This document shows, piece after piece, positions 54,085 to 64,000 of a stretch of 64,000 bases of DNA (position 1 is the first letter of the stretch; the number at the start of each line of letters is the position of its first letter). The notes beneath the pieces are model-generated. The model was not told where the DNA came from, did no database searches, and saw nothing but the letters and a program-made list of their open reading frames with translations. The stretch comes from Elusimicrobia bacterium GWB2_63_22 (GTDB lineage: Bacteria; Elusimicrobiota; Elusimicrobia; Elusimicrobiales; UBA9959). Where the stretch lies: positions 78,289 to 142,288 of the forward strand of contig MGUA01000039.1 of assembly GCA_001799735.1 (NCBI GenBank), written 5' to 3'. The position numbers were made by a program, and so were the translations under genes.

Positions 54085-55284
54085 ATGGCCGATAACTCTA
54101 ACAACAGGAAAAAAACTCTTTTTGTCTCCGTGCTGCTGTTCCTCGCGGCCGGCGGCGGAGTGTTCCTGTTTCTGGTTATTCAGGGGTCCAACGACCTAAC
54201 CAAGGGGAAAGGCAACACTTTCACCTACGGCTCGGCTGCGCGCGAAGGGGTAGCCTCTTTCTTCAAATATCTCGGGGGTTCCTCCGATGAGGAGAAGATG
54301 TCTGAACTTAAAACAGAGATGGCGGAGATAAGGGAGGACCTTGTCGCTACGGCCCAGGCGGCCAACCCGGACATTTCCGACTGGGTGGCTCCCCCGTCCA
54401 AACCGTCCGCTTCCGCTTCTCCTGCCGCAGTTCCCAGGATGGGCGGGGGCCGCCTTTCCGGGGCTGGTGGTATAGGGGCCGGCGGCAGCAAATCCTCCGG
54501 CGGTTCCTCGCGGTTCAGTGAGGGTTCGGGGCTGGGCAATACCAGGATCTCCAAAAATACGGCTTCCGCCACGGGGACCACGGAAAAGGGCACGCTGGCC
54601 GCCCTTACCAATGCCCGCGCCAAGCTTGGCGAAGGCCTGCGCAGCGGTTCCGCCATGACGGCCAAGGGTAAGTGGGACTCCAGTTTTGGCGTGGGCGGCG
54701 GCGGCGCCAAGGGGGATATGACCTACGGCAAAAGCGGTATGGTGAACCTGGACGGTATAAAGAAAGGGGAAATAGACAATCTTAAAGTAGCTAACGCCAA
54801 ATCCCTTAAGGTAACGGAGCCTGGTGAGTTCCAGCGGGATGAGAAGGCCGAGAGCAAGGATGCCGGCATACAGGCCGCCAAGGCGGCGGCTGAGACGGCA
54901 GCCAAGGAGGCGGCAGAGGCTGCCGCCAAGAAGGCCGCCGCCCAGGCCGCCCTCCAGGCTGCCTCGCAGGGAGTGGGCGGCACGGCCGGCAATCCAGCCA
55001 ACGCCGCCAGTGCGCCTAAGGACGACAGGGCGGGTAACAACGCCAACGCCCTGGCCCAGATCCCCGAAGTGGTGCAGGAGAACGCCACCACGGCCATCTT
55101 TCAGAATCAGCAGACGGACAGCGGGACCACGCTCCAGGATTCCGCTATAAATTTCACCAAGACGGCCGACGGTTTTGAAGCTACCTACACAGGCACTGCC
55201 ACCCCTTCGGGCGGTGGTAAGCCGTTCACGTACACGCAGACGGCTATTATGAAGCCGGACGGCACCATAACCGGGTGGAGATAA
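54085..55284 (+). CDS. Gly/Ala-rich anchored protein P2
   Basis: A 399-residue protein. A basic start (NNRKK) precedes one membrane anchor at residues 12-33. Then come an Asp/Ser-rich stalk, a helical Glu-rich stretch EEKMSELKTEMAEIREDL (possible coiled coil), a Gly/Ser/Ala-rich middle (to about residue 210) and an Ala/Lys-rich helix around 255-300. The C-terminal 60 residues are less repetitive: DSAINFTKTADGFEATY and KPFTYTQTAIMKPDGTITG, with an alternating pattern that suggests beta strands. No catalytic motif. It has its own promoter and an AGGGGG ribosome site, and is the first gene of the array that follows the flavo-diiron protein. Confidence 0.58.
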   Translation: MADNSNNRKKTLFVSVLLFLAAGGGVFLFLVIQGSNDLTKGKGNTFTYGSAAREGVASFFKYLGGSSDEEKMSELKTEMAEIREDLVATAQAANPDISDWVAPPSKPSASASPAAVPRMGGGRLSGAGGIGAGGSKSSGGSSRFSEGSGLGNTRISKNTASATGTTEKGTLAALTNARAKLGEGLRSGSAMTAKGKWDSSFGVGGGGAKGDMTYGKSGMVNLDGIKKGEIDNLKVANAKSLKVTEPGEFQRDEKAESKDAGIQAAKAAAETAAKEAAEAAAKKAAAQAALQAASQGVGGTAGNPANAASAPKDDRAGNNANALAQIPEVVQENATTAIFQNQQTDSGTTLQDSAINFTKTADGFEATYTGTATPSGGGKPFTYTQTAIMKPDGTITGWR

Positions 55285-55423: not shown

Positions 55424-56344
55424 ATGATGAAATTTCCGGCGAAAAAAGCTAAATCGACCCAGTACGTCATCGGCGGTACTGTAGGCGTGCTGATACTCGC
55501 TCTCTGGGTTTCCCTTCCGCTGATGAGCGGCTCCTCCATGGACGGGGGCGTTGCGGCCGGGAATCCTTTCAAATCCAAGGTGGCCGACCTTTCGGCCCTC
55601 AGCGACATTCCTTCCGAAGGCGGGGCCCCCGGTTCTCCTCTCAGCGGCGAAATGATAAACAACCCGGCCACCTCCGGAGAGGATATCGCCTCCTCCCTGT
55701 TCCAGTCCGGCCCTGATTCCGAGGTCACCGCCGAAGCGGAGGCCTCCGCGGATACCGCTTCCGGCGCCGTTCCCGCCCCCTCTTCCACTTCGGGCGGCGT
55801 TCCTTCGGCCGGCGGCCCCAGGGGGAAACTCAGCGCGGCCCCTTCCATAACCGGCGGCAATTCCAACTCCATGACGGCCGGCGGCCTGCATAACAAGTTC
55901 TTCGGCTCGGGTTCCAATAAGGCCGAGGTTGCTCCCGCGCTGCCGGGCGCCGACCTTAAAAAGATGGGCGCCAAGGATAACAAGGGCGCCCTGGTGGCCA
56001 TGCTCAGCAACAGCGCCGACAAAAGCGCGCTGGCCGCCAAGAGCGGCAAGATGGACGCCGCGCAGAATGGGGCGGCTTCCGCTTTCGGCGCCTCGGCCAA
56101 GGCGGCCGGTTCGGACCTTGACAATGACTTCGAAGGCCAGGCCATGGATTCCGGCCTGCAGCTCGGGCAGACGGCGCAGGACTTAAAAAAGAGCGACCCC
56201 AGCCTCAGCAAGACCAAGGTCACCCCGCCCTCCAAGCCCAAGGACGCCACTGATGAGAGCGAAGAGATGAAACAGCAGATAAAAATGATGATAATCCAGA
56301 TGGTCCTTAAGGCGATGTTCGCCGGGATGGGAGCCGCTGTCTGA
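55424..56344 (+). CDS. Gly/Ala/Ser-rich anchored protein P3
   Basis: A 306-residue protein. After a basic start comes one membrane anchor at residues 12-34. The mature part is Ser/Gly/Ala-rich; residues 155-235 have regular helical KMGAKDNKGALVAMLSNSADK-like segments, and residues 255-280 hold KKSDPSLSKTKV followed by a PPSKPKDATDE spacer. The SDPSL box recurs in P4. A C-terminal hydrophobic stretch (KQQIKMMIIQMVLKAMFAGM) could be a second membrane contact. Two Met codons (55424 and 55427) could start it. It has the strongest promoter in the window. Confidence 0.6.
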   Translation: MMKFPAKKAKSTQYVIGGTVGVLILALWVSLPLMSGSSMDGGVAAGNPFKSKVADLSALSDIPSEGGAPGSPLSGEMINNPATSGEDIASSLFQSGPDSEVTAEAEASADTASGAVPAPSSTSGGVPSAGGPRGKLSAAPSITGGNSNSMTAGGLHNKFFGSGSNKAEVAPALPGADLKKMGAKDNKGALVAMLSNSADKSALAAKSGKMDAAQNGAASAFGASAKAAGSDLDNDFEGQAMDSGLQLGQTAQDLKKSDPSLSKTKVTPPSKPKDATDESEEMKQQIKMMIIQMVLKAMFAGMGAAV

Positions 56345-56366: not shown

Positions 56367-57884
56367 ATGAACAACTATAACGAGAATAAAGAAAAGAAAG
56401 GCGGGTTCCTTTCGTCTCTTTCCGGCCTTTTCCGGGGCGGCTCTTCCGCGATGGGCGGCGCCTCCTCCTCAGGCCTCGGCTCTGCCGGTTCCGCCGGCGG
56501 CGGCTTGGCCGGTCTCTTCGCCACCAAGGCCGGCATAGTCGGCATGGTGCTGGGCGGCGCCACCATAGCGGCCGGCGTCGGCGTGGTCTACAACTTCATC
56601 GGGCCCTCCTCGAGCGGCGTCTACTCCCCCGAGCTGTTCCAGAACACCTACTACGAAGAGGAATCCAACAGGGCCGGGCTTGAGCGCTCCAAAGCGCGCG
56701 ACGCCTCGGGCGCCGCCTCTTCCACCCTGGATATGTTCAGGGAGCAGGCCAGGAAGGACGGCCTGGGCGGCCTTGCCGGCGAGGCCGGCGACGCCGAGGC
56801 GGCCAACGCCGCGGCTGAGGATCCTTCGGCGGCTGACGGCTCGGACGGCGCGGCTTCGGCCGACGCTCCTTCCGCTGACGGGGCTCCCGGCGCGGGCGGC
56901 GCGCCCAAACTGCAGGCTGCTTCGGGCTTTGGCGGCAAGGCCGGCGGCGGCGGCAGCGGCACCTCGATCCCCAGGATGCAGGGCGGCGGCGGGCTGGCGG
57001 GCGGCATAGGCGCGCAGTTCCAGCCGGTCTACAGGGCCCCGGCGCAGGCCAACGCGGGCAAATCCTCCGGCATGCTGGCCTCCGGCAACGCCAGGATCAC
57101 CCGCTCCCCCAAGTACGCGGTCCCGAACTTTAAGAAAAAGGGCGCTTTCGGCCAGGCCAAGTACGCCGGCAACATGAGCAAAAAGGCCGCCAGCTACAGC
57201 GGCGCGGCTTCAGCTTCGGCGGCTACCGATGCCATGATAGGCGAGACCACCGGCTCCGACGACGTGGCCGGCGGCGAGACTGGCGCGGGCCTCGGCGGGG
57301 CTGGTGTTTCCAACGGCCAGAGCCTGAAGGCCAGCGACCCTTCGCTGAGCAGCAATGAATCCACCGTGCCGGAGCCTTCCGAGCCCGAGGACGTGGACCC
57401 CTGGCAGAAATACGAAGATATGGCCATGTACGCGCTTATGGCCGGCGGCGTGCTGCTGATGCTGACCAAGTACCTGGCGGACGCGGCTCTGAAGCTGCTG
57501 CCTGCGGCTACTACTCCTATAGGAGTTGCGGCCTATCTGGCGGCCAGGATGAAGGCCATGATCGCCGGCTACGCGGCCATCGCGGCGGCCGCGGTTGCCA
57601 TCTTCGCCGGCTTTATGATGTTCTCCAAGTACGAGCAGAAGATGATGGGTGGTATCTACATGGCGGCCGGCGCTATGATCATCTGGCAGGCTTATCAGGC
57701 TATGGCCGGCATGGCCGGCCCCGAGACCGACGCGAGCGGCAACAGCACAATGACTATGAGTAACGGCGACAAGTTTACACAGGTGGGTGGCAAAGGCGAC
57801 TGGGTGAAGGTCACGGCCACTGCTGCCCCTGCTGCCCCTGTTGCCCCTGCTGCTGCGCCTGCTGTCCCTGCGGCTAAGCCGTAG
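56367..57884 (+). CDS. Gly/Ala-rich membrane protein P4
   Basis: A 505-residue protein that begins MNNYNENKEKKGGF, an acid-base start shared in outline with P5 and P7. A hydrophobic anchor is at about residues 52-74. Then come a YSPELFQNTYYEEE segment, a TLDMF box, a long Gly/Ala/Ser-rich region, the box GAFGQAKYAGNMSKKAASYSG and SDPSLSSNE. Near residue 347 a DVDPWQKYED motif opens a cluster of about four membrane segments to the end of the hydrophobic part (~450), followed by a Pro/Ala tail. P5 has the same order. The membrane cluster suggests a pore, pilin-like assembly or anchor; no catalytic motif. A GGAGG ribosome site precedes the ATG. Confidence 0.6.
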   Translation: MNNYNENKEKKGGFLSSLSGLFRGGSSAMGGASSSGLGSAGSAGGGLAGLFATKAGIVGMVLGGATIAAGVGVVYNFIGPSSSGVYSPELFQNTYYEEESNRAGLERSKARDASGAASSTLDMFREQARKDGLGGLAGEAGDAEAANAAAEDPSAADGSDGAASADAPSADGAPGAGGAPKLQAASGFGGKAGGGGSGTSIPRMQGGGGLAGGIGAQFQPVYRAPAQANAGKSSGMLASGNARITRSPKYAVPNFKKKGAFGQAKYAGNMSKKAASYSGAASASAATDAMIGETTGSDDVAGGETGAGLGGAGVSNGQSLKASDPSLSSNESTVPEPSEPEDVDPWQKYEDMAMYALMAGGVLLMLTKYLADAALKLLPAATTPIGVAAYLAARMKAMIAGYAAIAAAAVAIFAGFMMFSKYEQKMMGGIYMAAGAMIIWQAYQAMAGMAGPETDASGNSTMTMSNGDKFTQVGGKGDWVKVTATAAPAAPVAPAAAPAVPAAKP

Positions 57885-57928
57885 TAGAGAGTGTTTTATC
57901 CTTAGTTGAGAGAGTGTTTGGAGGCGTT

Positions 57929-59380
57929 ATGAACGACAATCTGCCGGATATTGGTTTTAAAGAAAAGAAAGAGAAAAAAGGCGGAGCCATAGGCTGGATC
58001 CGGGGCAAACTCGGCTTCGGTTCCCGCGGCGCCATGGGCGAGGCTGGCCTCAACCCCAACGTCATGAACGTCGGCAGGGCCATGGGCGGTGCCGGCAAGT
58101 TCGGCGCCTCCTCGTCCGGCATAGGCGGCCTTCTGGCCGGCGGCAAGCTGGGCACCGTGCTCACCATGGCCGTCCTGGCAGCGGCTGTAGGCACCACCCT
58201 GGTGATGAGGGGCGGGGATACCACTTCCGCTCCATCTTCGGCCTTTGATTCCGGCAAAACCGCCGCTTCCAACTATGTGCCGGCTATCTTAAGAAGCCAG
58301 GCCGCCAACCAGGGGTCTTCCCTTGATATGTTCAAGGAGACCAACAAAGGCGCCGGCCTGGCCATGGAGACGGATCCTTCCAAGGCCAATAAGCCGCCGG
58401 AGCCCAAGGCCGAGGAGGCCGCGGGCGAGGAAGCCCAGGGCGATCAGCCCGCCCCCGGGGGCGGTGAGAACATGGCCCAGGACATGATGGGCAAACTGCA
58501 GGGCGGCAACATGGCCTCCCTCACCAGTTCGCTCGGCGGCGGCAGCAACAAGTTCTCCAACATGGGCGGCTTCAGCAACAAGTTCGGCTCCGGCGCTACC
58601 GGCGCCAAGGCCGGCTTCAGCTCGGGCATAGGCGCCGGCTTCTCCGGTATGCCCAAGTTCGATGCTCGCAAGAACAAGATGATGGCGATGAAGGGTTCCG
58701 CGCGCCCCGTCTTCGGCGGCAGCAAGGCCGGCAAGAAGGGCACTTTCGGCTCCGGCGCTTTCGGCCAGGCCAAGGGCATGCGGGCCACCCAGAAGAGCTA
58801 CTCCGGCACCAGCATAGACTCCGCGCGCTCCACCCAGGATAAAGCCTGGGAGGGCTCCACGCCCGACGGCAGCACTGACGGCGGCGCGGGCCTCAGCGAC
58901 GGCGGCGCCGGCGTGGTAACCTCGCCTTCGCTCGATAATTCCACCAGCGGCGGCGGCGGCGGCGGCGCCGATGGCGTGGATGCCACCGTGCCCGACGCTT
59001 CCGGCGCTACGGACGTGAGCCCCTGGGCCAGCACGGTGCAGACCATCATGATGCTGGTCCTGGTCTCCGCCATACTGTCGGCGATAGCGTCGAAGCTGTG
59101 CCAGGCTAAGATCACCTACGTGTTCGGCGCCGTGATAGCCGCTATAGCAGCCATACTGGGCGTAATCGCTATCGTTATGGCCATAGGTCTCATGGGGTCG
59201 CAGGCTTTGATGGGCGGGCTTTACCTGTTGGGCGGCGGCCTGGCCGTTGCCGCGGCCGCCATGGCCCTGATGACCGACAGTTCGGGCGTACTGGCCCCCG
59301 GTACCGCCACCAGCATGATGTGGCTGGCCGCCGGCGCGGGCATCATCGGTATGCTTGGCAGCATGTTAGGCGGCAAGTAG
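57929..59380 (+). CDS. Gly/Ala-rich membrane protein P5
   Basis: A 483-residue paralogue of P4. It starts MNDNLPDIGFKEKKEKKGG and has an anchor at residues 67-86. Shared boxes are SLDMFKETNK, GAFGQAKGMRATQKSYSG and SPSLDNS, then ATDVSPWAS and a group of membrane segments (residues 365-480). The start at 57929 has GGAGG five bases upstream. It lies 44 bases after P4, in a leader that carries a repeated GAGAGTGTTT. The similarity over several boxes supports a duplication, with the low-complexity linkers free to change. Confidence 0.6.
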   Translation: MNDNLPDIGFKEKKEKKGGAIGWIRGKLGFGSRGAMGEAGLNPNVMNVGRAMGGAGKFGASSSGIGGLLAGGKLGTVLTMAVLAAAVGTTLVMRGGDTTSAPSSAFDSGKTAASNYVPAILRSQAANQGSSLDMFKETNKGAGLAMETDPSKANKPPEPKAEEAAGEEAQGDQPAPGGGENMAQDMMGKLQGGNMASLTSSLGGGSNKFSNMGGFSNKFGSGATGAKAGFSSGIGAGFSGMPKFDARKNKMMAMKGSARPVFGGSKAGKKGTFGSGAFGQAKGMRATQKSYSGTSIDSARSTQDKAWEGSTPDGSTDGGAGLSDGGAGVVTSPSLDNSTSGGGGGGADGVDATVPDASGATDVSPWASTVQTIMMLVLVSAILSAIASKLCQAKITYVFGAVIAAIAAILGVIAIVMAIGLMGSQALMGGLYLLGGGLAVAAAAMALMTDSSGVLAPGTATSMMWLAAGAGIIGMLGSMLGGK

Positions 59381-59405
59381 GCTGTTTTTGGTGGGTAGGC
59401 GCCGT

Positions 59406-59430
59406 GCCGCCGGGTTTTATCCCCGGCGGC
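59406..59430 (+). terminator. Terminator-like hairpin after P5
   Basis: GCCGCCGGG and CCCGGCGGC around a TTTTATC loop. The T-run that would make it a classic terminator is missing. Confidence 0.4.
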
Positions 59431-59462
59431 CTCGGGCTTAGTTGAGGCTGATTTTTCCGGAG

Positions 59463-59468
59463 TATAAT
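59463..59468 (+). promoter_or_regulatory. -10 box of the P6 gene
   Basis: TATAAT 52 bases before the P6 ATG at 59520, after TTGAGG at a short 15-base spacing (59442-59447). Confidence 0.45.
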
Positions 59469-59519
59469 AGGTGCGGTCCGGGTTCATTTACCCGCGGGCG
59501 CAGGAGCCGGGGAGGAGAT

Positions 59520-61016
59520 ATGGGCAGCAAGTTCGTAGAAAAACATAAACGCAAATCAGTCTTAGCCGCCCTGCTTTTTATTTTCAGCGGCAGGGTCAAA
59601 TACATCAGCATCATGCTGGTGGTGCTTATGCTTTCCGTGCCCTTCGTGATCTCGGGGGAGACGCTTAACGCCATTATAGAACTGCCCGGCGTGTCGGCCT
59701 TCCTCCGCTCCGTAGGCCTCGGCAGCGTGGTCTCGGCCGTTAACCCTAAATACTCCAACGACCTGCTCAGGGCGGCCCTGGACAAGGCGGCCCTGGACAG
59801 CGAGCAGAATTCTTTCTGGCAGCGGTTCCTCAAGAGCGTCAACGCCACCCTTCCGCCGGCCGGCGGGCCGTCCTCCATGGCCATGCTGCGCGGCGGCGCG
59901 GACCTTTTTGGCCCCGCGGAGCTTAAGGACGAGATCGCCAGGCAGAAGCGCGGCGCGGGCCAGGTAAAAGGCTCCCTTAACGACGAGGAGCGGGCCAAGG
60001 GCGAGAACGCCGACGAGGTAAATCTGGAAGGCCTGCTGGCCGGCGGCGGCGGGGGCTACGGCGACATGATGGGGGAGAACCTGGCGGCCAATTTTGCCGA
60101 CGGCGGCGCAGGCGGCAGCAACGCGCCGTATATGAACCGCACCATGTTCTCCGGCCGCGGGGCCGTGGGCGGGCAGGCGGCCGGCCAGTACAGCAGCGTT
60201 ATGAGCAAGTCCGCCAGCAAAGTGCCGGTGCCCAATTCGCCGCAGAAGGTCAACACCAAGCGCATGGGCCGCGTCTCGGGCTTTAGCTGGAAGAACGTGG
60301 GGTACAAGAGCAAGAACAACAAGATGGACATAAAACTGGGCAACAAGAAACCGATGTTCCAGCTGGCCCAGACCTTCGGCATGACCGGTGCCGCCTACAA
60401 ATCCAAGGATTCGGCGCTGGAATACCAGGCCGCCTATACCGGTACCACCTACGACGGCAACGACGCCAACCTGGACGTGATAGAAACCGACGCCGCCGCC
60501 CCCGCCGTGCCTGACACCGCTTTTACCGGCGACCTGATAGACGGCGCGGTAGAGGCCCAGGAGCTGGCCAAGGCCTGTTCCGACGCCCAGGGCACCCACG
60601 GCGCCGCCATGTCCGAGGACGGCAAGAAGATGGACGATACCGCCAGGACCCTCGGCAAACCGCCCAAGTGCTGCAGCAGCGGCGTGGGCGCCTGGAACGG
60701 CAAGATCGCCAGCATCATGGGCTACTGCTATGATTTTAATGCGCACGAGGCCCAGTTGTCGGCCGCCTGCCAGAACAAGAGCAGCCCCATGGACTGCAAC
60801 AGCTACAGCAAGATGAAGATAAAGCCCTGTTCCAAGCTGAAGTGCTGGCTCATGGTCATCATCATGATCGTGCTGGCCCTGCTGTTCGGCGCGGGCTTCT
60901 TGGTGGCCGCTATCATCGGCGTGGTTGCCGGCGGCTCCATGCTGGGCGGCGACATGTTCGGGCCCATAGGCGGCATGATAGAAGGTTTTATAAGTAAGAT
61001 GGCGGGCGGGGAGTAG
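59520..61016 (+). CDS. Anchored protein P6 with Cys-rich C-terminal module
   Basis: A 498-residue protein. A basic start (KFVEKHKRKSVLAALLF) and GRVKYI lead to an anchor at residues 27-45. The middle is Gly/Ala/Asn-rich with a KKPMFQLAQTFGMTGAAY box that aligns with the FGQAK box of P4/P5 and an AYTGTT that may match SYSG. Residues 380-445 are Cys-rich (PPKCCSSGVG, MGYCYDF, SAACQNK, MDCNSY, KPCSKLKCW), followed by membrane segments to the end. The start at 59520 has GGAGGAG upstream. The Cys module is likely disulfide-bonded outside the cytoplasm; its role is unknown. Confidence 0.6.
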   Translation: MGSKFVEKHKRKSVLAALLFIFSGRVKYISIMLVVLMLSVPFVISGETLNAIIELPGVSAFLRSVGLGSVVSAVNPKYSNDLLRAALDKAALDSEQNSFWQRFLKSVNATLPPAGGPSSMAMLRGGADLFGPAELKDEIARQKRGAGQVKGSLNDEERAKGENADEVNLEGLLAGGGGGYGDMMGENLAANFADGGAGGSNAPYMNRTMFSGRGAVGGQAAGQYSSVMSKSASKVPVPNSPQKVNTKRMGRVSGFSWKNVGYKSKNNKMDIKLGNKKPMFQLAQTFGMTGAAYKSKDSALEYQAAYTGTTYDGNDANLDVIETDAAAPAVPDTAFTGDLIDGAVEAQELAKACSDAQGTHGAAMSEDGKKMDDTARTLGKPPKCCSSGVGAWNGKIASIMGYCYDFNAHEAQLSAACQNKSSPMDCNSYSKMKIKPCSKLKCWLMVIIMIVLALLFGAGFLVAAIIGVVAGGSMLGGDMFGPIGGMIEGFISKMAGGE

Positions 61017-61375: not shown

Positions 61376-64000
61376 ATGAACTTCTATAACGACGAAGAAA
61401 ATGAAAAAAAGGCAGGCGCCCCGGTGTTGCCGCGCGCGGCGTCACCGTTTAAGAAAACGTCCGCCTTCGGCAAGACGCCCCTGTTCTCCAGGGCTGCCGG
61501 CGGCATAATGGACCGCCTCAAGAACCTCTCGCGCAAGGACATGGCCCTCGTCGGCCTGGGCCTCAGCGTGCTGACCATGGTGCCCGTGGCCGAATACATG
61601 ATGTCGCAGCCCTCCCCGGACAATGTCCTTGAAGGCGGCTGGGGCGGCAAAGAAAAGCTCGGCAACATGCCCTATGAACCGGGCATCAACGGCTTAAGCC
61701 AGGGCTCCTCCGACGGCTCCGGCGAAGTTATAACCCCGCTGAGCTCCAGGGACCCGATGTCCCTGATCCTGGGCTCGCAGCCCACCCAGCCGGCGGTAAC
61801 CGCTCCCGTCTATACGCCTCCCGCCTCCTCTATGCGCGACGCCATGCGCGACGCCGGCCGCGAGGCCTTCAGCGCTGCCTCCAAGTCCGCGGGCGCGCCT
61901 ACCGTCATCCCCAAGATGGCCGCAGGCCTGCGCGGCATGTCCTCCTTCTTCGGCGGCGGCGAGAGCTCCCGCACCCAGGGCTCCCTGGGCGGCGGCAAGA
62001 TCATAAACGACGCCCGCTCGGCCTCCTCCAAGGCGGCCAAGCGCTCCATGGTGGGCCCGGTGGCCATAGCCGGCTACAAGGGCGTGGCCTCCACCCCGAA
62101 CAGCGCCTCCAAGGGCGCCTTCGAAAAACTGCGCGCCGCGGCCGACAAATCGGCCGGCAACTTCAGCGGCGGCTCGGCCATGAACTCCCTGGACAAAGCC
62201 GCGGCCGACGCGCTTGAGATAGGCAAAGGCGCGGGCGGCATGGGCGCCGGCGGCGACTCCGACAAGACCGGCAAGACCTCCGGCAATTCCGTCAAGGGCT
62301 ACGAGCACAACCGCTCCGGCGAGTCCCTGGCCGAAATGGCCGCCAAGCAGCGCCAGCAGAAGGCGCTGGAATGGGAATTCTTCAAGAAATACGAGATCAA
62401 GAAGCAGATCATCAACGCCATCGTGGGCGCGGTTTCCGGCGTGCTGGGCGATTTTGTAAAGGGCAATATGACCAGCGCCCTGGGCATGGATCCGCCTCCG
62501 GCGGCCAAGTGCTGGCAGCCTATTCTCCAGGACCCGGCGACGATAGCGAGGATCACGAAAGAAAACTTGGGTAATCCGGAAGGGTATGCTAACGCCATGT
62601 GCGGCGCGCTCGGGTCCGTGCAGTTGATTACTACCGTCGGCAAAGAGTCCGCCCAAGGGTTTCAGACCACCTGTCTCTGCGGCAGGGGAAAAACCGCGGA
62701 CTACCCGAAGGGCGCTGTCGCAGTCCCGGGAGCTGGTCCCGGTCCTGGCGGCCCGGGCTATGTTCCTGGCGGCCCCGGCGCCCCTGCAGTGGACCCCGGC
62801 ACCCCCGGCGGCGTAGTCATCGACCCCCAGACCTTCTCCGAGTATGACGCGGTGCTGAAGGGTATGGTGGAAAAAACCGCCGAAGTTCAGGCAAAACCCG
62901 AAACCGCCAAAGACGGCGTAGCCGCGATCGCGGAGGGCTTTCCGAAGCTCAGCAGGATAGTCACCAGCAATTACGCTGTGCGCCTGAGATCTCTTTCCGA
63001 GGCGACCGCGGGCGCCTTCTCCGCCTATTCGGCCAAGGTGATCTCCGCTCAGAGCGCGCACACGGCGCTGAAGCCTGATTATGATGCGTTAATTGTTAAG
63101 CTTGACTCGCTGCCCGCCACTATCAGAACGGGCTCAGCCGGTCCCGGCGCCATAAGTGACGTGAGAGGAACCAACGTCGAAAATATAGCGAGCAATAAGG
63201 ACACGCAAAAATTAGCCGATATAGAAGCCCTGATAACCGAGTGGAAGGCTACCGCCGGTAAAACGTATACGGACTCGGCCGCTATCATCCAACTGGAGGC
63301 CAGACGTGTCAGGGTATACAAAGACCAGGTGGACAAACTTCAGGAAGGCGTCAGAAAAATAGGGGAGAAACAGGCGGGGATAGATGCCGCAGTCTCCGGA
63401 ATTGCCGAAACTGACCCGGCCAAAAAGATCACGGCTCTTACCGGACAGGATGTCGCCGCTGCCGCCACGCCCGGTACGGATACGGCGGCCCCTGCCCCCG
63501 CTCCGGCTCCCGCTCCCGCCGCCAACAAAGACGCTTCCGCTGCGCCTATAGAGACTGCGGCGCAACTGCGCGGTGTTGTGCTTTCCTGGACGCCTACTTA
63601 TGAGCTTGACAGCAAGGCTGTCTCCGGCAAGGAGACCACTGATTGGGAGGCCTGGCGCGCGGATAGCAGCAAAGAACTTGGCCTGGCCGACAATCTTCTG
63701 CTGAGTCAAATGCGCAACAAGGAACTGAGGGAAGTTATCGCGGCAGGGCTTGCGGCCGCTACGGCAGCAGAGGCTAACTTCGGCTACGTTAAAACCCAGA
63801 TGGAAAGCCTCAAGAATCAGCTGATCACCATGGGCGTTCCCCCTGGCTACTTCGGCGGCGGCAACACGGCTGGCAACACGCCTCCGCCCGCAGGCAATAC
63901 GCCTCCGCCCGCCGGCAACACGCCTCCGCCCGCAGGTAATACGCCTCCTCCGGCAGGTAACACCCCGCCGCCCGCAGGCAACACTCCGCCGCCGCCCCCG
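61376..64000 (+). CDS. Anchored protein P7, N-terminal part (runs off the window)
   Basis: An open frame without stop from the ATG at 61376 to the window edge, at least 875 residues. It starts MNFYNDEENEKKAG, like P4 and P5, then has one anchor at residues 57-75 (MALVGLGLSVLTMVPVAE). Residues 90-310 are Gly/Ala/Ser-rich with Lys; then come CWQPILQDPA, AMCGAL and TCLCGRGK (a Cys module), a Gly/Pro spacer, and a long helical part from 480 to 820, with coiled-coil-like segments. The last visible part is NTPPPAG repeated about five times. GGAGGCGG precedes the ATG. Function unknown; the large ectodomain suggests a surface or secreted-structure protein. Confidence 0.65.
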   Translation, partial: MNFYNDEENEKKAGAPVLPRAASPFKKTSAFGKTPLFSRAAGGIMDRLKNLSRKDMALVGLGLSVLTMVPVAEYMMSQPSPDNVLEGGWGGKEKLGNMPYEPGINGLSQGSSDGSGEVITPLSSRDPMSLILGSQPTQPAVTAPVYTPPASSMRDAMRDAGREAFSAASKSAGAPTVIPKMAAGLRGMSSFFGGGESSRTQGSLGGGKIINDARSASSKAAKRSMVGPVAIAGYKGVASTPNSASKGAFEKLRAAADKSAGNFSGGSAMNSLDKAAADALEIGKGAGGMGAGGDSDKTGKTSGNSVKGYEHNRSGESLAEMAAKQRQQKALEWEFFKKYEIKKQIINAIVGAVSGVLGDFVKGNMTSALGMDPPPAAKCWQPILQDPATIARITKENLGNPEGYANAMCGALGSVQLITTVGKESAQGFQTTCLCGRGKTADYPKGAVAVPGAGPGPGGPGYVPGGPGAPAVDPGTPGGVVIDPQTFSEYDAVLKGMVEKTAEVQAKPETAKDGVAAIAEGFPKLSRIVTSNYAVRLRSLSEATAGAFSAYSAKVISAQSAHTALKPDYDALIVKLDSLPATIRTGSAGPGAISDVRGTNVENIASNKDTQKLADIEALITEWKATAGKTYTDSAAIIQLEARRVRVYKDQVDKLQEGVRKIGEKQAGIDAAVSGIAETDPAKKITALTGQDVAAAATPGTDTAAPAPAPAPAPAANKDASAAPIETAAQLRGVVLSWTPTYELDSKAVSGKETTDWEAWRADSSKELGLADNLLLSQMRNKELREVIAAGLAAATAAEANFGYVKTQMESLKNQLITMGVPPGYFGGGNTAGNTPPPAGNTPPPAGNTPPPAGNTPPPAGNTPPPAGNTPPPPP
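63862..63990 (+). repeat. 21-base coding repeat (NTPPPAG)
   Basis: Tandem near-copies of a 21-base unit encoding Asn-Thr-Pro-Pro-Pro-Ala-Gly, starting after GNTAG. Copies differ at third codon positions, so the protein sequence is kept. The array is cut by the window edge. Confidence 0.8.

Follow-up and report, generated by a model that had tools for sequence, protein, structure and literature searches.

Seven uncharacterized membrane proteins (P0 and P2 to P7), six of which are encoded consecutively in the 64,000-nt stretch of Elusimicrobia bacterium GWB2_63_22 DNA analyzed here (the window), can be assigned, with good support, to the Elusimicrobiota Tad pilus locus. Region 56367 to 61016 accommodates three adjacent plus-strand genes, P4, P5, and P6, whose reading frames and peptides lie where a first-pass annotation of the same DNA had placed them. 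ORF analysis located these genes within a longer row that begins with P2 and P3, ends with P7 beyond the window (Table 1), and keeps a collinear gene order across the family f1 relatives. No Pfam family matched P2–P6 at the cut-off, nor did any NCBIfam model match P2–P7, and neither a class III prepilin signal nor a TadE domain was recognized in P2–P6 (Pfam) or P2–P7 (NCBIfam). A single-sequence query retrieved P4 homologues from 49 of 248 genomes of the phylum. Elsewhere in the window, P1 (49763–51310), likewise Gly/Ala-rich, combines an N-terminal TM with a C-terminal domain that is conserved. A Mur-ligase gene and one of flavodiiron type stand between it and the row, but its first 50 residues match P2 (E 4e-5, 70%) and it may belong to the P2–P7 set. 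The C-terminal part of P7 (~63860–64000) carries tandem AGNTPPP units that are not conserved in orthologues.

Table 1. Genes of the P2–P7 row and their conserved boxes, in window coordinates
Feature	Position	Strand	Description	Evidence
P2	54085..55284	+	N-terminal TM, Ala/Gly-rich periplasmic linker, without C-terminal TM	ORF; 22 sequences aligned, family f1
P2 module copy	54583..54717	+	EKGTLAALTNARAKL...KWDSSFG	family consensus; score 33.9 vs P4/P5 profile, 0/100 shuffles equal
P3	55424..56344	+	N-terminal TM, linker, single C-terminal TM	ORF; 25 aligned sequences
P3 module copy	55979..56128	+	NKGALVAML...GAASAF	E 1.2e-6 vs deep P4/P5 profile
P3 LK-x-(N/S)DPSL box	56186..56212	+		D 25/25, P 25/25; P3-P4 linker homology
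P4	56367..57884	+	N-terminal TM, ~270-aa linker, C-terminal three-membrane-helix bundle	ORF; AlphaFold
P4 module copy	57135..57248	+	KKGAFGQAKYAGNMSKKA...ATDAMIGE	Q, A, K invariant (n=26); F at position 290 in 25/26
P4 SDPSL box	57330..57350	+		D25, P26 of 26
P4 EDVDPW	57387..57404	+	start of first C-terminal membrane helix	P23, W23 of 26
P5	57929..59380	+	P4 paralogue over full length	hhalign E 5.8e-42
P5 module copy	58748..58867	+	GAFGQAKGMRATQKSYSG...STQDKAWEG	Q 23/25, A 24/25, W 24/25, G 24/25
P5 TDVSPW	59009..59026	+	start of C-terminal membrane segments	P21, W21 of 25
P6	59520..61016	+	N-terminal TM, linker, Cys-rich helical domain, C-terminal TM	ORF
P6 module copy	60345..60470	+	KPMFQLAQTFGMTG...EYQAAYTGTTYDGND	D313, G314 invariant in 27 rows; profile score 25.6
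P7	61376..64000, on to ~64288 past window end	+	architecture as other P proteins, large C-terminal region	gene call
P7 module copy	62108..62233	+	SKGAFEKLRAAADKSAGNFSGGSA...LDKAAADA	profile score 27.1; conserved f1 to f8

All six proteins of the row carry, between the N-terminal TM and the C-terminus, a module of the form KGAFxx(A/L)...A(F/W/Y)xG, with weaker support in P6 and P7. It also occurs in P0, a 423-aa protein encoded on another contig beside TadE/TadG, for which support comes only through P2. Residue counts on 22–26 aligned sequences per family bore out the GAFGQAK box that the first-pass annotation had reported in P4 (aa 259–265) and P5: G, Q, A264, and K were each found in 26/26 P4 sequences, and K in 18 of the 25 P5 sequences, along with the Q and A listed in Table 1. 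On the other hand, the SYSG proposed to follow it proved to be a chance match in P4: its Y column has Y in only 2 of 26 sequences, against A in 16, and it stays unpaired with the P5 SYSG in the profile alignment. The true second half after GAFGQAK is marked by an aromatic residue (F in P4, W in P5) within A-x-(F/W/Y)-x-G, which reads AFSGE in P4 orthologues, AWEG in P5, and TYDG in P6. Similarly, the QLAQTF box proposed for P6 was upheld (F20, Q20, and L19 of 23 in MFQLAQTF), whereas the AYTG assigned to the second half (Y22, G23 of 23) is not its equivalent, a place that belongs to TYDG (Y, D, and G in all 23). An amphipathic helix was discarded as a common property of the boxes, with hydrophobic moments from 0.01 to 0.47 that were not diagnostic.

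The remaining boxes fared unevenly. As claimed, DVxPW is conserved in P4 and P5 and lies just before membrane segments, the first of which begins in P4 at residue 347, right after the W, and SDPSL is also kept in P3. Of the (S/T)xPSL box attributed to both P4 and P5, SDPSL is conserved in P4 and TSPSL within the P5 family (S20, P22, S22, and L19 of 25), but the two are not aligned with each other in the profile alignment. The sequence between boxes had been described as nearly free, which is wrong given its substantial conservation: in the P4 linker, 81 of 260 columns reach 80% conservation or more, and STLDMFREQARKDG and SPKYAVPNF stand out as further conserved blocks. Overall, the original observation was partly confirmed, and its interpretation as functional assembly or processing sites was partly supported, in that assembly fits one module found in seven families of the same pilus locus, while processing found no support.

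Profile comparisons extended the relationship beyond the full-length homology of P4 and P5. Restricting the profiles to the linkers connected P0 with P2 (E 3.5e-7), P2 with P3 (E 1.6e-4), P3 with P4 (E 6.8e-7), and P4 with P5 (E 3e-18), and with deeper profiles P6 and P7 aligned with P4/P5 exactly at the box, albeit weakly as single comparisons (E 0.011 and 0.0065, respectively). Several of these links were controlled with 100 column-shuffled, composition-preserving profiles, none of which reached the scores obtained in the box register by P6 (shuffled maximum 15.4) or P7 (16.5) against the P4/P5 profile; the real scores of P2 versus P4/P5, P2 versus P3, and P0 versus P2 were likewise unmatched. 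P0 did not rise above column shuffles against P4/P5 and joins the set via P2. An HMM of the P4/P5 box detected class-level P4/P5-type paralogues above 955 shuffled decoys, plus about half of the P3 sequences, but missed P6, P7, and P2, which only profile-profile comparison connects. Retention of the module in families that share little else suggests a constraint common to all seven. A different set of Gly-rich membrane proteins, encoded beside TadG/FtsH in family f5 (L099:1-7398), displays look-alike boxes, for example KKGLRNAAK...AGFGE; these proteins were rejected as module carriers, as the box HMM gave them no support.

Judging from gene neighborhoods in related genomes, the P2–P7 row is very probably associated with the Tad pilus. 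In related orders, the row lies directly downstream of the Tad pilus locus, and a TadG-TadE/FtsH-P3..P7 row is continuous with the core Tad locus in the order-level family f2 (G051, L113+L116; G036, L096+L114) and the class-level family f7 (G240, L103+L115). Pfam identified on L116 of G051 T2SSE/TadA, two T2SSF proteins (TadB, TadC), secretin, RcpC/CpaB, TadE, a class III signal peptide, and TPR repeats in a TadD-like protein; E-values over L113+L116 were 6.6e-64 for T2SSE, 4.2e-41 for secretin, 9.7e-16 for RcpC (PF16976), 2.7e-9 for TadE, and 2.6e-5 for the class III signal. In class-level relatives, the row is preceded by TadE-like, TadG-like, and FtsH-like genes together with response regulators, the TadG-like label denoting a gene next to TadE whose product has a suitable size and a hydrophobic segment at its N-terminus, without a Pfam match. 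Among the 248 genomes, TadG-like proteins are present in 129, P7 in 120, both in 117, and neither in 116, leaving 12 genomes with TadG only and 3 with P7 only, counts that are descriptive because related genomes are not independent. By a hand tally of listed coordinates, TadG-like and P7 are no more than 30 kb apart in about 40 f2 genomes and in at least 9 f7/f8 genomes. The window's own genome distributes the locus among three contigs, which hold the core Tad genes (C21, with TadE and T2SSE), a response regulator-Flp-TadG-TadE-FtsH-P0 row (C1, with the second TadE), and P2–P7 (C39); family f1 shows no linkage between the row and the Tad locus. On C1 (L090, 149000-161490), Flp-like, TadG-like, and TadE-like proteins and an FtsH-like AAA+/M41 protease are encoded in one row. 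Several families keep the FtsH-like gene adjacent to TadG/TadE, an arrangement that is, to our knowledge, unusual for a Tad locus. The same genome (3.06 Mb) yielded eleven T2SSE-type ATPase matches, indicating that it encodes more than one type IV filament or secretion system.

AlphaFold modeled the P4 box as a helix (260-275; pLDDT ~70 in block 261-270) in a linker that is otherwise mostly disordered, and the P6 box was also modeled as helical, with pLDDT <50. The box is thus probably a short helix inside an otherwise disordered periplasmic tether, as far as these models go. The C-terminal helices of P4 (347-376, 384-421, and 425-447) were predicted with pLDDT >90 over most of their length, and since this bundle begins right after DVDPW, DVxPW is best read as the start of a helix at the membrane interface. 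The Cys-rich domain of P6 was predicted as a confident helical hairpin (335-378 and 390-418, pLDDT mostly 86-96), in a protein where C354 is invariant and C385, C404, C418, and C427 are at least 90% conserved. Searches of solved structures with P4/P5, P6, and P7 profiles returned no match, nor did Foldseek find anything in the PDB at E ≤0.001 for the P4 and P6 models. A VirB2/TrbC-type TM hairpin was considered for the P4/P5 C-terminus and rejected, as Pfam gave no match and the best Foldseek hits (E 0.18) were unrelated proteins.

Building on the conserved gene row, its linkage to and co-occurrence with Tad, and the box common to all members, we tentatively propose, at somewhat short of an even chance, that P2–P7 are inner-membrane accessory subunits of the Elusimicrobiota Tad (Flp, type IVc) pilus machine and that their disordered tethers share a docking helix. 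The topology, helicity in vivo, docking, and scaffold role that we infer would be as follows. Each P protein would be anchored by its N-terminal helix, with the N-terminus in the cytoplasm, and would extend a long disordered tether into the periplasm, where the conserved P6 cysteines would fit. There, the box would fold as a short helix and attach each tether to the other tethers or to a single shared partner, for which the RcpC/secretin conduit, the TadE/TadG tip, and P7 are candidates. P4 and P5 would contribute a C-terminal membrane bundle entered just after DVxPW, P6 a disulfide-stabilized helical hairpin, and together the proteins would form a scaffold surrounding the base of the pilus. 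Several points weigh against this proposal. Conservation for a different purpose, for instance as a chaperone or protease site, would leave the same pattern; the box is modeled with modest confidence in P4 and with low confidence in P6; taken singly, the links of P6 and P7 are weak; the f1 row is unlinked; and a few genomes have only one of the two markers. It is possible, if rather unlikely, that the Tad pilus of Elusimicrobiota is supplemented by a scaffold comprising six or more distinct inner-membrane proteins, joined by one docking helix in disordered periplasmic tethers. We know of no comparable heteromeric, motif-sharing layer in type IV filament machines.

In relatives, the row forms one continuous stretch with Flp, TadE, RcpC/CpaB, secretin, TadZ-TadA, TadB, TadC, and TadD, as in a Tad/Flp (type IVc) locus, but none of the P2–P7 families is named as a Tad component in the excerpted text of PMC12307814 and PMC12075869. 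Tad pili themselves are known; their nearest described parts, the conduit formed by RcpC (PMC12307814) and the tips of the Kil system (PMC12075869), are both unlike the P proteins. The Kil system, a Tad-like predation apparatus of Myxococcus (PMC8460266, PMC12075869), is likewise a Tad machine with parts in separate clusters and TadE/F/G-type minor pilins (PMC12075869); however, Kil tips are cleaved minor pilins, whereas the P proteins have no recognized prepilin signal and several bear C-terminal membrane helices. The RcpC/CpaB alignment complex is similarly anchored in the inner membrane and spans the periplasm of the Tad machine, but RcpC forms a folded dodecamer (PMC12307814), unlike the disordered tethers of the P proteins, and Elusimicrobiota encode a separate RcpC (Pfam PF16976). 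A title search of the literature found no relevant paper on the P2–P7 gene set or on Elusimicrobiota Tad pili. The shared box and the Tad locus together point to an undescribed assembly added to a known pilus machine, and would give a cellular process to a run of low-complexity genes that lack annotation and occur in several families of one phylum. Tad loci may include membrane accessory proteins particular to a lineage; outside the phylum, distribution was covered by a single-sequence scan, and we therefore do not claim phylum specificity. The invariant Q-A-K offers a defined, substitutable motif bearing on a shared docking site of disordered tethers in a pilus machine.

The boxes could alternatively be the slowest-evolving remnants of one duplicated ancestral family, whose copies may differ in role and need no common partner. 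The full-length paralogy of P4 and P5, the N-terminal TM and linker of every member, and a paralogue number that varies between genomes all agree with such a reading, which we nonetheless consider unlikely, given that a short segment was retained in all seven families while most else diverged beyond recognition, suggesting a common constraint. It is improbable that the P proteins are cargo or surface material, that is, a Gly/Ala-rich fiber or adhesin exported through the Tad pore: their very high Gly/Ala/Ser content and the outer-membrane-type protein encoded next door would suit this role, but the N-terminal anchor, the C-terminal membrane bundles, and the fixed locus order fit membrane subunits, and Pfam recognizes no class III signal. 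Quite improbable, too, is that the boxes are protease processing sites releasing linkers or C-terminal domains. An FtsH-like AAA+/M41 gene indeed lies beside TadE/TadG in f1, f7, and f8, but FtsH usually degrades whole proteins, and the f2 loci L095, L096, L098, and L113 retain the row without an adjacent FtsH gene. Moreover, neither Pfam nor NCBIfam recognized a prepilin, sortase, or signal-peptidase-like site in any box, the central box residues differ between families, and DVxPW sits at the start of a membrane helix. Finally, chance matches in low-complexity sequence, the first-pass annotation's own counter-explanation, do account for the P4 SYSG and could for the unproven equivalence of P5 TSPSL with SDPSL, but are hardly credible for the main box and were refuted there by the (near-)invariance of GAFGQAK across orthologues and by profile links that exceed the composition-preserving controls.

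Next to P7, many relatives encode a deoxyhypusine synthase family protein (L051:3038-4087 and its f1 equivalents; Pfam PF01916, E 3e-94) between P7 and the outer-membrane-type gene, a position from which it is absent in the window's genome.
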